Shown piece by piece: positions 5,798 to 26,352 of a DNA stretch of 64,000 nt (position 1 is the first letter of the stretch; every line of letters starts with the position of its first letter). The notes under the pieces were generated by a model. It ran no database searches, was not told the origin of the DNA, and worked only from the letters and a program-made list of their open reading frames with translations. Position numbers and translations under genes: made by a program. Source of the DNA: Haloarchaeobius salinus. GTDB taxonomy: Archaea; Halobacteriota; Halobacteria; Halobacteriales; Natrialbaceae. Location of the stretch: NCBI RefSeq assembly GCF_024464185.1, contig NZ_JANHAU010000001.1:1054001-1118000 (forward strand). Direction: 5' to 3'.

Positions 5798-5800
5798 TCC

Positions 5801-6016
5801 ATGGCGATCCTTCGACCCAGCGAGATCCGAGACCTCACCGCGCGGGAGCGCGAGGAAGAGCTCGACGAACTCGAGACGGAACTGCTGAACGCGAAGGCCG
5901 TGCAGGCCGCCGGTGGTGCCCCGGAGAACCCGGGCCGCATCGGTGAGCTCCGCAAGACCATCGCGCGCATCAAGACGATCCAGCAGGAAGAAGGCGACTT
6001 CGAGGACGACGAATAA
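5801..6016 (+). CDS. rpl29: Large ribosomal subunit protein uL29
   Basis: 71 residues forming the expected two-helix hairpin. It begins [20 protein letters not shown], and the C-terminal half contains [20 protein letters not shown]. It sits near the tunnel exit next to uL23. Its stop codon shares one base with the next gene. Confidence 0.95.
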
Positions 6017-6393
6017 TGGCGCTGACACCCGAGACACTGCCCCGGCACGAACTCAACGGCCACTGGGTGACCGTGGTCGACGCGGCGAACCCCGACCTCG
6101 TCGGGATAGCCGGGCGTGTCGTCGTCGAGACGACGAACACGCTCCACGTCGACCCGGCCCCGGCCGGTTCGGCCGAGGGAGACACTCGGGTGCGCCAGGT
6201 GCCAAAGCGCGGGACGACGTTCGAGTTCCGGCTCACAGATGAAACCGCCGACCCCGCGAAGGGGTCGGGGACTGCGTGCGAACCGGACCACCCTGCCGGC
6301 GAGGACGCGGCCCACGTTACGGTGGATGGAGCCAGACTGCTCTCACGACCCGCACTGCGCACCGAAACAACAGGTGATTCGAAATGGCGATAG
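6016..6393 (+). CDS. rnp1: Ribonuclease P protein component 1 (Rpp29/Pop4)
   Basis: 125 residues, the protein subunit that with Rpp21 supports the specificity domain of archaeal RNase P RNA. The Sm-like beta-barrel shows [34 protein letters not shown] and [10 protein letters not shown], all typical of the family. Its place between rpl29 and rps17 is the conserved archaeal arrangement. It overlaps rps17 by 10 bp. The C-terminal 35 residues are less conserved in appearance. Confidence 0.92.
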
Positions 6394-6734
6394 GACTTGA
6401 CGTAACAGAACCTCCGGAACCCGAAGACCCGGAGACATACGACTACGAGAAGTGTCCGTTCTACGGCGATCTCTCCGTTCGAGGGCAGACCCTCGAGGGC
6501 GAGGTCGTCTCGACGGACATGGCAAAGACCGTGGTCGTCGAGCGGGAGTACGACGTTCACGTACCGAAATACGACCGGTACATGAAGCGTCGGTCGCGCG
6601 TCCCGGCACACGTGCCGGGCGTGCTCGAGCCCGAAGTCGGCGACACGGTCCGAATAGCAGAGTGCCGACCACTGTCGAAGACGAAATCGCACGTGGTCGT
6701 CGAGATAACCGATTCCGAAGGAGGTGACGCCTGA
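6384..6734 (+). CDS. rps17: Small ribosomal subunit protein uS17
   Basis: 116 residues, OB-fold. It has an archaeal N-terminal extension, then [20 protein letters not shown] and [16 protein letters not shown] typical of S17. The start overlaps the end of rnp1 and the stop overlaps the rpl14 ATG by one base. Confidence 0.97.
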
Positions 6735-7132
6735 TGGAGGCACTGAAGGCCGACGTCACGCAGGGCCTCGAGAAGGGGTCGCTGATTCACTGTTCCGACA
6801 ACAGCGGTGCACGACAGCTGAAGATCATCTCGGTCTCCGGCTACCACGGCACCAAGAACCGGCACCCCAAGGCTGGCATCGGCGACAAGGTGACCGTCTC
6901 GGTGACCAAGGGGACGCCCGAAGAGCGTCGCCAGGTCAAGGAGGCAGTCATCATCCGCCAGCGCAAGCCCATCCGCCGTCCCGACGGCACGCGCGTGAAG
7001 TTCGAGGACAACGCGGCCGTCCTCGTCAACGAGAACGAGGAACCGCAGGGCTCCGAGATCAAGGGCCCCATCGCGCGTGAGGTCGCAGAGCGCTTCGGAA
7101 GCGTCGCATCCACGGCTACGATGATAGTATGA
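6734..7132 (+). CDS. rpl14: Large ribosomal subunit protein uL14
   Basis: 132 residues. It shows the uL14 hallmarks [20 protein letters not shown] and [20 protein letters not shown], and ends with the conserved [18 protein letters not shown]. It lies at the subunit interface. It overlaps rpl24 by 4 bp. Confidence 0.97.
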
Positions 7133-22790: not shown

Positions 22791-24086
22791 TCAGTCCTCG
22801 GCGACCGACCGCCGCGAGTGCCCCGACGCCGGTGCGGGCGGTTCGTGCGTGCCGAACTCGGGGTGTGTCTCCTCCATCCACGTCCAGACGACGGCACCGG
22901 AGACGAACATCAGCAGGGCGGTCATGTAGAACGCCGCCTCTGCGCTCACGAACTCCATCGAGAGGCCGATGAGTATCGCGCCGACGCCGTAGCCGGAGTC
23001 ACGCCACATCCGGTAGACGCCCATCCCGGTCGCCCGCCACGTCGGGTGCGCCGCGTCGCCCGGAACCGTCATCAGGTTCGGGTAGAGCAGCGCCATCCCG
23101 AGGCCGGAGACCCCGGAGAGGACGACCCATGGGAGGTAGCCCTCGACGAGGACCATCCCGAGGACGCCGCCGCCGGCGAGGAACATCCCGGCGATGACGG
23201 GCGGTCGGCGGCCGATGCGGTCCGCGAGTCCGCCGGTCGCGATCTGCAGGAAGTACATCGCGCTGTGGACCCCGACGACGAGGCCGACCGCCGCGATGCC
23301 GAGCCCCTCACTCGTGAGATACAGCGGGACGGCGAGCCAGAACAGCGTATCGACGAACTTCTCGATGTGTCCGGCCTGTGCCGCGGCGAACAGCGTCCGG
23401 TCGCCGTAGGTCGCACGCTTCAACACCTCGTGGAACGGCAGGTTCGCGTCGTGGTGGTCCTCGTCGTCGTCGATCTCCGCTCTCGCGAGCTGGACCGTCT
23501 CCTGGATCAGGAACACCGAGATGAGCAGCGCGAGTACGACGACGACGCCGAGGAAGTAGAACGGTTCGGGCCTGAGGTTCGTCCCCGCGGCGATGACGCC
23601 CGTGACCCACGCACCGACGGCGACGCCACCGTAGCCGAACGCCTCGTCGATGCCGACGGCCAGGCCACGTTGCTCGGGGCCGGCGATGTCGATCTTGGCG
23701 TTGATGGCCATGCTCCAGGTGAGTGCCTGGTTGATGCCCAGCAGGACGTTCCCGACGGTGACCCACGCCCAGTTGGGCGCGTAGATGAGGATGATCGGGA
23801 GCGGGAGTGCGGTCAGCCAGCCGAGGACGAGCACGGGCTTACGGCCGTACTCGCTGCCCCACTTGCCGGCGTAGAGGTTCAGGAGCCCCTTGACGAAGCC
23901 GAAGGAGACGACGAACGAGCCGATGACCAGCAGCGACTCGACGCCGAGGACGTCCCGTCCCAGCACCGGGACGACGGCGCGCTCGGAGCCGATCGTCAGC
24001 CCGGTCGCGAACACGAGCAGGACGTGCAGGGAGAACTGCCCGAGGTGCTCGCGGATGCCTTGCCTGGGTGTGGTGTCCGAACTCAT
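22791..24086 (-). CDS. MFS permease, sulfur-module associated
   Basis: 431 residues, about 12 hydrophobic helices in two halves split by an acidic cytoplasmic loop near residue 210 (RAEIDDDEDHHDANLPFHEV). Motif A-like sequences are GKWGSEYGRKPVLVLG in the first half and GGLADRIGRRPPVIAG in the second. The gene starts 4 bp after the stop of the rhodanese-dioxygenase gene, so both are likely one transcript. By context it could export or import a sulfur compound; this is inference, since MFS proteins of this type cannot be assigned from sequence. Confidence 0.85.
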   Translation of the reverse strand: MSSDTTPRQGIREHLGQFSLHVLLVFATGLTIGSERAVVPVLGRDVLGVESLLVIGSFVVSFGFVKGLLNLYAGKWGSEYGRKPVLVLGWLTALPLPIILIYAPNWAWVTVGNVLLGINQALTWSMAINAKIDIAGPEQRGLAVGIDEAFGYGGVAVGAWVTGVIAAGTNLRPEPFYFLGVVVVLALLISVFLIQETVQLARAEIDDDEDHHDANLPFHEVLKRATYGDRTLFAAAQAGHIEKFVDTLFWLAVPLYLTSEGLGIAAVGLVVGVHSAMYFLQIATGGLADRIGRRPPVIAGMFLAGGGVLGMVLVEGYLPWVVLSGVSGLGMALLYPNLMTVPGDAAHPTWRATGMGVYRMWRDSGYGVGAILIGLSMEFVSAEAAFYMTALLMFVSGAVVWTWMEETHPEFGTHEPPAPASGHSRRSVAED

Positions 24087-24089
24087 GGT

Positions 24090-25202
24090 TCACTCCGCTG
24101 CACAGTTGTTCGGCCCGAGCTCCAGCTCGGCCAGCTCGTCGGCCGGGACGGACTCCCGTCCGACGTTCGTCCGCTTGACGCGCTCGAAGTTCGGCGGGTG
24201 GTCCGGGACGTCCGACGCGAGTGCCGCGACGAACGCCTCGCGGTCGCGCCCGAGGTCCGCGTTCCGTTCCCTGACCTCACCGAGGGTGGCGGTCACCGGC
24301 GGTTCGGGGGAGCCGGGGTCGTGTGCCGGCAACACCAGGGCGTCGTCCGGCCGGTCGAGCAGTCGCTGGAGGCTCTCGTAGAGGGTCGCGGCGTTCCCTT
24401 CGACGTTCGAGTCCTCGATGCCGGCTTCGACGCCGAGCTCGACGCGGCCCACGCTCTCGTGGAAGAGCGTGTCACCCGTGAGCAGTGCCGCACCATCGAT
24501 GGCGAACGAGACGCTCCCCTCGCTGTGTCCCGGCGTGTGGACGACTTCGACGTCGAGCCCACCGACCGCCACGCGCTGGCCGTCCTCGAGCGGTGTCGCG
24601 TCGATGTCGAGCGCGTCCTTCGGGTGGAGGAAGTAGGGGACGCCGTGCCGGTCCGCGAGTTCCGCGCCACCCGAGACGTGGTCGGCGTGGGCGTGCGTAT
24701 CGAGGACACCGACGAGTTCGGCGTCGTGCTCGTCGAGGACCGCCTCGTACTCGTCGAGATACTGCGAGGGGTCGAAGACGGCCGCCTCACCGTCCGAGAC
24801 GAGGACGTGCGAGAGACAGCCCTTCCCCGGTCGGGCGACCTGCACGAGCGTGCCGTCGAGGTCGGTCGGGACAGTCGCGTGCCGGTGGACGCGACTCCAG
24901 CCGTTCATGCCGTCCGCGAGGGTCACCGCGTCGTAGCCCAGCTCTTGGAGCACCGCAGTGGCGGTGTCGGCGACGACACCTGCGGCACAGACGGTGACGA
25001 TTCGTTCGTCACGGGGGAGTTCCGAGAGGGCCTCCGTGGCTCGTTCGGGGTCTTCGACCAGCTCGTCGTACACGTCGACGTTGCGGCTGCCCGGGATGTG
25101 CCAGTCCTCGAACTCCGCCTCGTGACGGACGTCCAGGACGAGCGGCCCGCTATCGCTGTCGGGTAGCTGTTCGCCGAGTTCGACCGGTGAGATATCCTGC
25201 AT
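24090..25202 (-). CDS. Rhodanese-persulfide dioxygenase fusion (ETHE1-like)
   Basis: 370 residues. The N-terminal rhodanese domain (1-105) has LVLDVRHEAEFEDWHIPGSR and an active-site Cys at 72 (VCAAGVVAD). The C-terminal metallo-beta-lactamase domain (115-370) has THAHADHVSGG (H170, H172, D174, H175), HTPGH (H226) and LLTGDTLFHESVGRVEL (D244), as in non-haem iron persulfide dioxygenases. The likely role is oxidation of glutathione-like or low-molecular-weight persulfide to sulfite, with sulfur transfer by the rhodanese part. Known bacterial fusions often have the domains in the opposite order. The start at 25202 (MQDISPVELG) lies 88 bp from the divergent regulator. Confidence 0.88.
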   Translation of the reverse strand: MQDISPVELGEQLPDSDSGPLVLDVRHEAEFEDWHIPGSRNVDVYDELVEDPERATEALSELPRDERIVTVCAAGVVADTATAVLQELGYDAVTLADGMNGWSRVHRHATVPTDLDGTLVQVARPGKGCLSHVLVSDGEAAVFDPSQYLDEYEAVLDEHDAELVGVLDTHAHADHVSGGAELADRHGVPYFLHPKDALDIDATPLEDGQRVAVGGLDVEVVHTPGHSEGSVSFAIDGAALLTGDTLFHESVGRVELGVEAGIEDSNVEGNAATLYESLQRLLDRPDDALVLPAHDPGSPEPPVTATLGEVRERNADLGRDREAFVAALASDVPDHPPNFERVKRTNVGRESVPADELAELELGPNNCAAE

Positions 25203-25240
25203 CGTGCTTCCGCATAAACAGTGTACTTGTAAACGGGTGA

Positions 25241-25258
25241 TGCCGGTCATGACCGGCA
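25241..25258. promoter_or_regulatory. 18 bp perfect palindrome in a divergent promoter
   Basis: TGCCGGTCATGACCGGCA is identical to its reverse complement over all 18 bases. It lies 39 bp from the dioxygenase start and 32 bp from the regulator start, just upstream of the GTTAAT box of the regulator. Position and symmetry suggest an operator for a dimeric regulator, most simply the HTH-10 protein encoded beside it. Confidence 0.6.
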
Positions 25259-25290
25259 CCGTTAATCCTGACGCGCCCGAACCCGTCCGT

Positions 25291-26025
25291 ATGAGCCTCT
25301 ACGAAGCGTCGCTCCGGGTCAAACACGAGTGTCCGTACCGGGAGATCTCGGAGCGGTACCCGGACCTGACCATCCGCGAGTGGCCGCTGAACGACTGCCA
25401 GGTGCTCGAGATTACCGCCGAGACGACGCCGACCGACGAACTGCTCGAGGAGATCGGTCGGCTCGGGACGGTCCTCCACGAATCGGCGGACGAGGACGGG
25501 TACCACGTCGTCACGCAGTCGTGTCTCTGTTCGTTCGAGGCGTCGATCATCGACCGCGTCGAGGCGCACAACTGTCTGTACCAGTCGCCGACGATCTACC
25601 ACCAGGGCTGGGAGCACTACACCGTGATCGCGTTCGACGGTGAGGACGTTCGCGAACTGCTCGAAGACCTGCGCGCCGACAGGGAGATAGAGCTCCTCTC
25701 GAAGACCTCGATCTCGGAGACACAGATACCACACAGCATGCTGGCACCGGCGAACCAGCTGTTCGAGGACCTCACCGACCGGCAGCTGGCCGCACTCCAG
25801 CTGGCGTTGGAGCGCGGCTACTACGACCAGCCCCGGGGAATCTCGATTCGAGAGCTGGCCGAGCGGACGTCGGTCGCGCGCTCGACGTTCGAGGAGCACC
25901 TGCGCAAGGCGGAGAACAAGCTGCTCACGAACGCGGGCGAGTTCCTGCGGCTGCTGACGGCGACGTCCGCGGGCGACCCGCTCGGCGTCGAGGCGACGAC
26001 GCGAGCCGGGGGAACCGCGGACTGA
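25291..26025 (+). CDS. Cys-containing HTH-10 (bat-type) transcriptional regulator
   Basis: 244 residues. The C-terminal HTH-10 domain is clear: LTDRQLAALQLALERGYYDQ, ISIRELAERTSVARSTFEEH, LRKAENKLL. The N-terminal ~160 residues are a sensor-like domain with five cysteines (C14, C36, C78, C80, C95), including the pair QSCLCSF. It is divergent from the rhodanese-dioxygenase and MFS genes and followed by a convergent DsrE gene. Context suggests that it senses reactive sulfur or redox state through Cys. The start at 25291 fits a leaderless mRNA with GTTAAT about 28 bp upstream. Confidence 0.85.
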   Translation: MSLYEASLRVKHECPYREISERYPDLTIREWPLNDCQVLEITAETTPTDELLEEIGRLGTVLHESADEDGYHVVTQSCLCSFEASIIDRVEAHNCLYQSPTIYHQGWEHYTVIAFDGEDVRELLEDLRADREIELLSKTSISETQIPHSMLAPANQLFEDLTDRQLAALQLALERGYYDQPRGISIRELAERTSVARSTFEEHLRKAENKLLTNAGEFLRLLTATSAGDPLGVEATTRAGGTAD

Positions 26026-26028
26026 GCC

Positions 26029-26352
26029 TCAGCCGATGGTGAGCACCTCGTCCGCGTCCTCGACGACGCCGAGGCAGTCCGCCATCGTGGCCCGCGGTCT
26101 GAGCTCGTCGGTTTCGAGGTCCCGCGAGTCGAGACAGGTCCCGCAGGCGAGTAGCGTCCCGCCGTTCTGGGTGTACTTCAGCATCACGCCGTGGGGGTTG
26201 AACTTCTCGTGCTCCAGGTCTGGAGCGTCGACGCCGTCGCCCAGGAGGAACACCTCGACGGAGTGGTCGGCGTCGAGTGCGGTGTTCGCCAGTCGGAACG
26301 CGTTCCAGACCCGTTCGGGGTCGTTGGTCTCGAGGATGATTCCGATGTCCAT
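26029..26352 (-). CDS. DsrE/DsrF-like sulfur carrier protein
   Basis: 107 residues. It begins MDIGIILETNDPERVWNAFR and has VEVFLLGDGVDAPDLEHEKF and GGTLLACGTCLDSRDLE, the DsrE fold with a CGTC pair (C70, C73) and a further C93. Proteins of this family carry persulfide sulfur or serve as small redox partners. The stop codons of this gene and the HTH-10 gene face each other 3 bp apart, which places it in the sulfur module. Confidence 0.85.
   Translation of the reverse strand: MDIGIILETNDPERVWNAFRLANTALDADHSVEVFLLGDGVDAPDLEHEKFNPHGVMLKYTQNGGTLLACGTCLDSRDLETDELRPRATMADCLGVVEDADEVLTIG

Follow-up and report, generated by a model that had tools for sequence, protein, structure and literature searches.

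We describe a divergent locus of Haloarchaeobius salinus in which the gene of a five-cysteine regulator of the HTH-10 family faces away from an operon encoding a rhodanese-dioxygenase and a major facilitator superfamily (MFS) permease. The locus lies in a 64,000-nucleotide (nt) stretch of the genome (GCF_024464185.1, NZ_JANHAU010000001.1, forward strand 1,054,001-1,118,000), hereafter the window, whose numbering is used for all positions. Comparison of sequences supports the view that the regulator, a palindrome in the shared promoter region and the dioxygenase-MFS operon form one evolutionary unit, in which the site would serve both promoters, and strongly supports local, autoregulated control by the HTH-10 protein through this palindrome. 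Persulfide or polysulfide sensing is our best inference for the signal, and the module is probably a reactive-sulfur switch of archaea that is not related to those known from bacteria. Taken as a whole, the explanation that this is a self-contained, HTH-10-controlled and persulfide/polysulfide-sensing divergon for reactive sulfur in Halobacteria is one that we favour with modest confidence.

Conservation of the three genes and their palindrome

The initial annotation of this DNA had predicted a linked set of four genes, the fourth encoding a DsrE-family protein, and all four are present where they had been placed. Of 391 Halobacteria genomes sampled, 114, representing 45 of 86 genera, have an ortholog of the regulator (approximately 56-84% identity, with a gap before the paralogs at 38% and below). 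The gene order HTH-10/dioxygenase/MFS recurs in dozens of genera, and the module is also present in organisms used in the laboratory, on Halobacterium salinarum pNRC100 and Haloferax mediterranei pHME132. Among 78 named regulator loci from Halobacteria, 76 have an MFS ortholog in divergent orientation to the regulator; the two exceptions, L101 and L149, are on short contigs, and one seems to be disrupted. The dioxygenase gene is intact in approximately 57 of the 78, split or cut by a contig end in 3, reduced to a remnant in 7 and absent from 11. The true unit is one of three genes, HTH-10 divergent from dioxygenase plus MFS, and the most constant partner of the regulator is the MFS permease rather than the dioxygenase. 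A four-gene unit was rejected because the DsrE gene adjoins the regulator in only 11 of the 78 loci.

Co-occurrence was examined in 125 genomes of the window's own family. The regulator was present in 56 of these, all of which have the MFS gene (detected in genome G030 only by direct inspection of the locus), as do 5 of the 69 others, while dioxygenase orthologs occur only alongside the regulator, in 35 genomes; the corresponding Fisher p values (4e-30 and 1e-16, respectively) are descriptive only because the genomes are related. The linkage of four genes proposed in the initial annotation is therefore upheld for HTH-10, dioxygenase and MFS but not for DsrE, which is optional, and the co-occurrence analysis in Halobacteria that it had suggested as a check shows a strong association of regulator and MFS, with an inconstant DsrE and a dioxygenase that roughly one locus in four lacks or has only in decayed form.

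Remnants of the dioxygenase gene are located between HTH-10 and MFS in seven loci (L090, L091, L109, L128, L134, L140 and L142), with an intact regulator, MFS gene and palindrome, and the enzyme gene has thus decayed repeatedly. In Haloarcula amylovorans (L105, approximately 5800-6900), the dioxygenase ortholog is divided between two open reading frames, probably due to a frameshift or sequencing error.

The shared promoter region contains a perfect 18-bp palindrome (Table 1), a feature that the initial annotation did not mention. Its consensus, TGCCGGWCATGACCGGYAC, was matched in each of the 119 ortholog promoters examined, of which 104 are distinct, scoring 14-20 of 20 except for two Haladaptatus loci (11), whereas random stretches almost all score 9-13. 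The palindrome starts 50 or 51 nt 5' of the HTH-10 ATG in 97 of the 104 distinct promoters, and 7 of its 20 columns are invariant. Replacement of the central C/G pair by T/A involves both sides jointly in nine promoters and a single side in eleven. According to the promoter consensus, the palindrome is situated between, and abuts, two conserved elements that we assign tentatively as TATA-like. Four loci in which DNA has been inserted between the genes (two of Haladaptatus, one of Salinadaptatus and one of Natrialba swarupiae) have two palindromes, one of them at a distance of 36-37 nt from the dioxygenase ATG, compared with 38 nt in the window, and the other beginning 50-56 nt 5' of the HTH-10 start codon. 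The two Haladaptatus loci (L152, L153) also have a gene for a single-domain rhodanese (107 aa) between HTH-10 and dioxygenase, approximately 414 nt upstream of HTH-10 and 3' of the second palindrome.

The palindrome is absent from all five MFS loci that lack HTH-10, where two weak matches (15 of 20) are hardly symmetric and do not lie near the MFS and dioxygenase starts. Both this absence and the duplication in loci with inserted DNA support the proposed role of the palindrome. In the window's own genome, a single copy was found when one mismatch or fewer was allowed, and no good copy was detected in the sulfur-island promoters that were checked. A wider regulon was rejected on inspection of six additional exact sites in other genomes, which have no module genes and are apparently within coding sequence. 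Because of this distribution, the regulon looks like one divergon that would include the regulator's own gene.

Domains and conserved residues of the regulator and dioxygenase

The regulator consists of an N-terminal PF24280 domain (HVO_A0563_N; 147.7 bits, gathering score 27) and a C-terminal HTH_10 domain (PF04967; 76.3 bits, cut-off 23.1). These are the only domains above the Pfam cut-off, with neither PAS nor GAF being detected in the protein. The label 'bat-type' given in the initial annotation is appropriate for the Bat-like HTH_10 domain but is otherwise loose, as a protein without PAS/GAF is not Bat proper. The same annotation set the regulator apart from CstR, BigR and SqrR, with which we agree because Pfam and NCBIfam scans found no CsoR or ArsR domain in it.

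As annotated, the protein has exactly five cysteines (14, 36, 78, 80 and 95), whose conservation was counted in 106 distinct regulator orthologs (Table 1). His12 is likewise invariant (106/106) and further cysteines are nearly absent. Paralogs of approximately 30% identity, one of them beside hut genes, lack Cys14, Cys36 and Cys80 and keep Cys78 and usually Cys95. The invariance of Cys14, Cys36, Cys78 and Cys80, three of them specific to this branch, is the best evidence for a putative thiol or metal-thiolate sensor. In the secondary structure of the model, the cysteines are placed in loops at strand ends. A fold search with the regulator returned only Thermoplasma Ta1207 (5m86; E=1e-3, template modelling (TM) score 0.38), which we treat as a lead only.

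In Haloferax alexandrinus and Haloarcula halophila (L167, L168), PF24280-HTH_10 paralogs are encoded next to hut genes or not far from them, which suggests that this branch regulates histidine utilisation. HTH-10 relatives are greatly expanded in Halobacteria, with up to 45 matches per genome, mostly without assigned targets.

The enzyme combines an N-terminal rhodanese domain (PF00581, 56 bits), whose active-site Cys72 is invariant in 14 aligned proteins, with a metallo-beta-lactamase (MBL) domain in which the ligands H170, H172, D174 and H175 (HxHxDH, 170-175), H226, D244 and H294 are invariant in the same number of aligned proteins. The nearest PDB sequences by profile, and the nearest folds, are S. 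aureus 3r2u, 3tp9, human ETHE1 and BpPRF, all ahead of glyoxalase II, and the best structural match is 3r2u, a CstB-type protein. The rhodanese-first domain order is the reverse of that in CstB and BpPRF. By fold, ligands and nearest relatives, the window enzyme belongs to the ETHE1-like persulfide dioxygenases, and it is predicted to share their oxygen-dependent oxidation of persulfides at a mononuclear Fe(II).

Table 1. Coordinates of genes, promoter elements and regulator cysteines, in window numbering
Feature	Position	Strand	Basis and remarks
MFS permease, 431 aa	22791-24086	-	Pfam MFS_1, E=6e-40; last gene of the divergent operon
Rhodanese (N-terminal) and persulfide-dioxygenase-like MBL (C-terminal) protein, 370 aa	24090-25202	-	Pfam Rhodanese, Lactamase_B
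Shared divergent promoter region, 88 bp	25203-25290	.	Sequence; consensus over 56 promoters
TATA-like element of dioxygenase-MFS operon (putative)	25229-25233	-	Analogy with conserved ATAT of orthologs; weak in the window (TAAA, + strand)
Perfect 18-bp palindrome TGCCGGTCATGACCGGCA, proposed operator	25241-25258	.	38 nt to dioxygenase ATG, 32 nt to HTH-10 ATG
TATA-like element TTAAT of HTH-10 gene (putative)	25262-25266	+	Consensus cgtTAaT at about -28
HTH-10 regulator, 244 aa	25291-26025	+	PF24280 aa 5-150, E=2.8e-43; HTH_10 aa 161-212, E=1.6e-21
Cys14 codon	25330-25332	+	Invariant, 106/106; subfamily-specific
Cys36 codon	25396-25398	+	Invariant, 106/106; subfamily-specific
Cys78-x-Cys80	25522-25530	+	Both invariant, 106/106; Cys80 subfamily-specific, Cys78 common to paralogs
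Cys95 codon	25573-25575	+	100/106; mostly common to paralogs
DsrE-family protein, 107 aa, CGTC motif	26029-26352	-	Pfam DsrE, E=8e-9; convergent with HTH-10; optional neighbour

The dioxygenase start in Table 1 is the conserved ATG at 25202, the mechanically called open reading frame extending to 25259. The DsrE match (PF02635) scores 36.1 bits against a cut-off of 22.7.

Sulfur context, proposed mechanism and rival explanations

All five MFS orthologs without HTH-10 are found in or beside sulfur islands with rhodanese-MBL (dioxygenase) paralogs, four of which also contain a TrmB-like regulator, YeeE, TusA and DsrE2, and three TauE. The pNRC100 island of H. salinarum (VNG_RS12435-12490) encodes TrxA, a TrmB-like protein, TauE/SafE, MFS and the rhodanese protein, then HTH-10, followed by PiT, two YeeE proteins, a rhodanese-MBL protein, TusA and DsrE; Pfam confirms these families in the equivalent island of Halorussus litoreus. 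Sulfur islands also repeatedly encode, often next to TauE, a small protein of the TrmB family with 134 aa, whose conserved Cys is close to the N-terminus (MECEGLLECFHGLKELDKECF; L087, L103, L108, L165, L169, L170, L172 and L173). To the eye, another motif, about TTTGCATAG...ACAATAC, seems to be common to the promoters of rhodanese-MBL/TusA and TrmB/TauE, which suggests a second sulfur regulator.

In the mechanism that we propose for the divergon, an HTH-10 protein, presumably dimeric, would bind the single palindrome between the divergent promoters and control the dioxygenase-MFS operon as well as its own gene. The N-terminal domain would sense excess sulfane sulfur through cysteines 14, 36, 78 and 80, whether by persulfidation, by di- or polysulfide bridging or by loss of a bound metal. 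On induction, as the protein families suggest, the rhodanese domain would pass sulfane sulfur to a low-molecular-weight thiol, the dioxygenase domain would turn the thiol persulfide into sulfite and the permease would export a product such as sulfite or thiosulfate. The thiol of haloarchaea is gamma-glutamylcysteine. Within this mechanism, a variant in which the dimer represses, blocking TBP/TFB on both sides of the palindrome and leaving when its cysteines are persulfidated, takes the smaller, though appreciable, share of the probability. It would suit the position of the palindrome, which abuts both TATA/BRE (TFB-recognition element) regions, and the bacterial counterparts CstR, BigR and SqrR, which are repressors. 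However, activation is the mode of action of the HTH-10 proteins that have been characterised, namely Bat, DmsR and NarO (for NarO and DmsR, neither of which has PAS/GAF, see PMC11218638), and because of NarO and DmsR we lean, by analogy and not strongly, towards an activator or dual regulator.

Some observations weigh against a reactive-sulfur switch. The dioxygenase is absent from 11 and decayed in 7 of the 78 loci, where HTH-10, MFS and palindrome are kept; this loss from roughly a quarter of loci is our chief ground for caution, as the substrate of the permease may be the centre of the response and the primary cause of regulation. The AlphaFold model of the regulator is modest (predicted local distance difference test (pLDDT) 77, predicted TM score (pTM) 0.54), and no significant PDB sequence match was found for this protein. 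An efflux-centred switch, in which HTH-10 senses a thiol-reactive compound or soft metal (electrophile, Hg, As or Cu) and acts mainly on the MFS gene, with the dioxygenase as an accessory that can be lost, would account for retention of the MFS gene in 76 of 78 loci when approximately 18 lack the dioxygenase or have only a decayed copy of it. It would also agree with weak, below-cut-off matches of the permease to multidrug-type models and with the resemblance of four Cys and a His to a possible metal site. We nevertheless regard this explanation as unlikely, given that the five MFS orthologs without HTH-10 are in or beside sulfur islands with other rhodanese-dioxygenases, that the pNRC100 module is placed among TauE, YeeE, TusA and DsrE, and that no metal-resistance gene was seen among the annotated recurrent neighbours.

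Alternatively, the protein could be an oxygen or redox regulator in which the four cysteines bind an Fe-S cluster or become disulfides on exposure to air, with the module handling sulfur that is freed as the oxygen supply changes. The persulfide dioxygenase family requires O2, and four invariant cysteines would suffice for a cluster. NarO, which resembles the window regulator in its lack of PAS/GAF, is described as an oxygen sensor (PMC11218638). This alternative is nonetheless improbable, because respiratory genes were not seen to accompany the module constantly and because an oxygen regulon would require sites beyond the single divergon to which the palindrome is restricted. Finally, the genes could be neighbours by chance with the palindrome bound by another factor, and palindromic symmetry by itself is not rare (9 or 10 pairs in 1.5% of 88-nt control stretches), but the linkage is kept across genera, the spacing is fixed, and the palindrome is duplicated where promoters are split and absent where HTH-10 is lacking, all of which makes this strongly disfavoured and very improbable.

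Relation to known systems

Persulfide responses have mainly been worked out in bacteria, and here a module widespread in haloarchaea appears to be governed by another family of regulators. We see an even chance that PF24280-HTH_10 proteins of this type constitute a new class of persulfide/polysulfide-sensing factor, unrelated to the CsoR, ArsR, OxyR and MarR sensors, in which a four-Cys sensor (C14, C36, C78-x-C80) acts through one palindrome on two divergent promoters and a sulfur-detoxification operon in approximately half of the sampled Halobacteria genera. One branch of the HTH-10 proteins would thereby gain a function; dozens of these relatives are encoded in many haloarchaeal genomes, and for most of them no target is known. 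The sharply defined set of cysteines and the defined operator make both sensing and archaeal promoter control directly testable. We found no report of HVO_A0563, of this regulator or of any HTH-10 protein in such a role in the open-access full text (subscription papers being outside the scope of this search).

Among the archaea, NarO and DmsR are Bat-like HTH-10 proteins without PAS/GAF, as is the window regulator, but control nitrate and DMSO respiration. SurR of the Thermococcales is an ArsR-type protein. It is an archaeal regulator that responds to elemental sulfur via cysteines (PMC9426492), but it governs S0/H2 metabolism rather than a persulfide dioxygenase module. The HVO_A0563-type regulators beside hut genes have the same N-terminal domain and HTH_10 at approximately 30% identity, but are without Cys14, Cys36 and Cys80 and have histidine-utilisation neighbours. 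In H. salinarum NRC-1, the pNRC100 island contains a regulator ortholog of 82% identity with dioxygenase and MFS in the same order, but there the module is inside a larger island with TauE, PiT, two copies of YeeE, a second rhodanese-MBL protein, TusA and DsrE.

Among bacteria, the BigR-Blh system has an N-terminal sulfur-transfer domain and a transporter in the operon, as does the window module. In Xylella and Agrobacterium, BigR is likewise a local Cys-based regulator of a bifunctional sulfur transferase/dioxygenase (PMC5823870), but it is an ArsR-family repressor and the transporter is TauE/SafE, as opposed to PF24280 plus HTH_10 and MFS in the window, whose dioxygenase falls far below the Blh equivalog cut-off (NF040641; 58.4 versus 625 bits). 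The cst operon of S. aureus similarly places a persulfide dioxygenase-rhodanese, CstB, together with an exporter under a Cys regulator, but CstR is of the CsoR family and the dioxygenase-rhodanese order of CstB is reversed in the window enzyme. In combining a local Cys regulator, a dioxygenase/rhodanese and an exporter, the module follows the logic of the cst and bigR operons and would thus work like a known kind of system, from which it differs in the family of its regulator.

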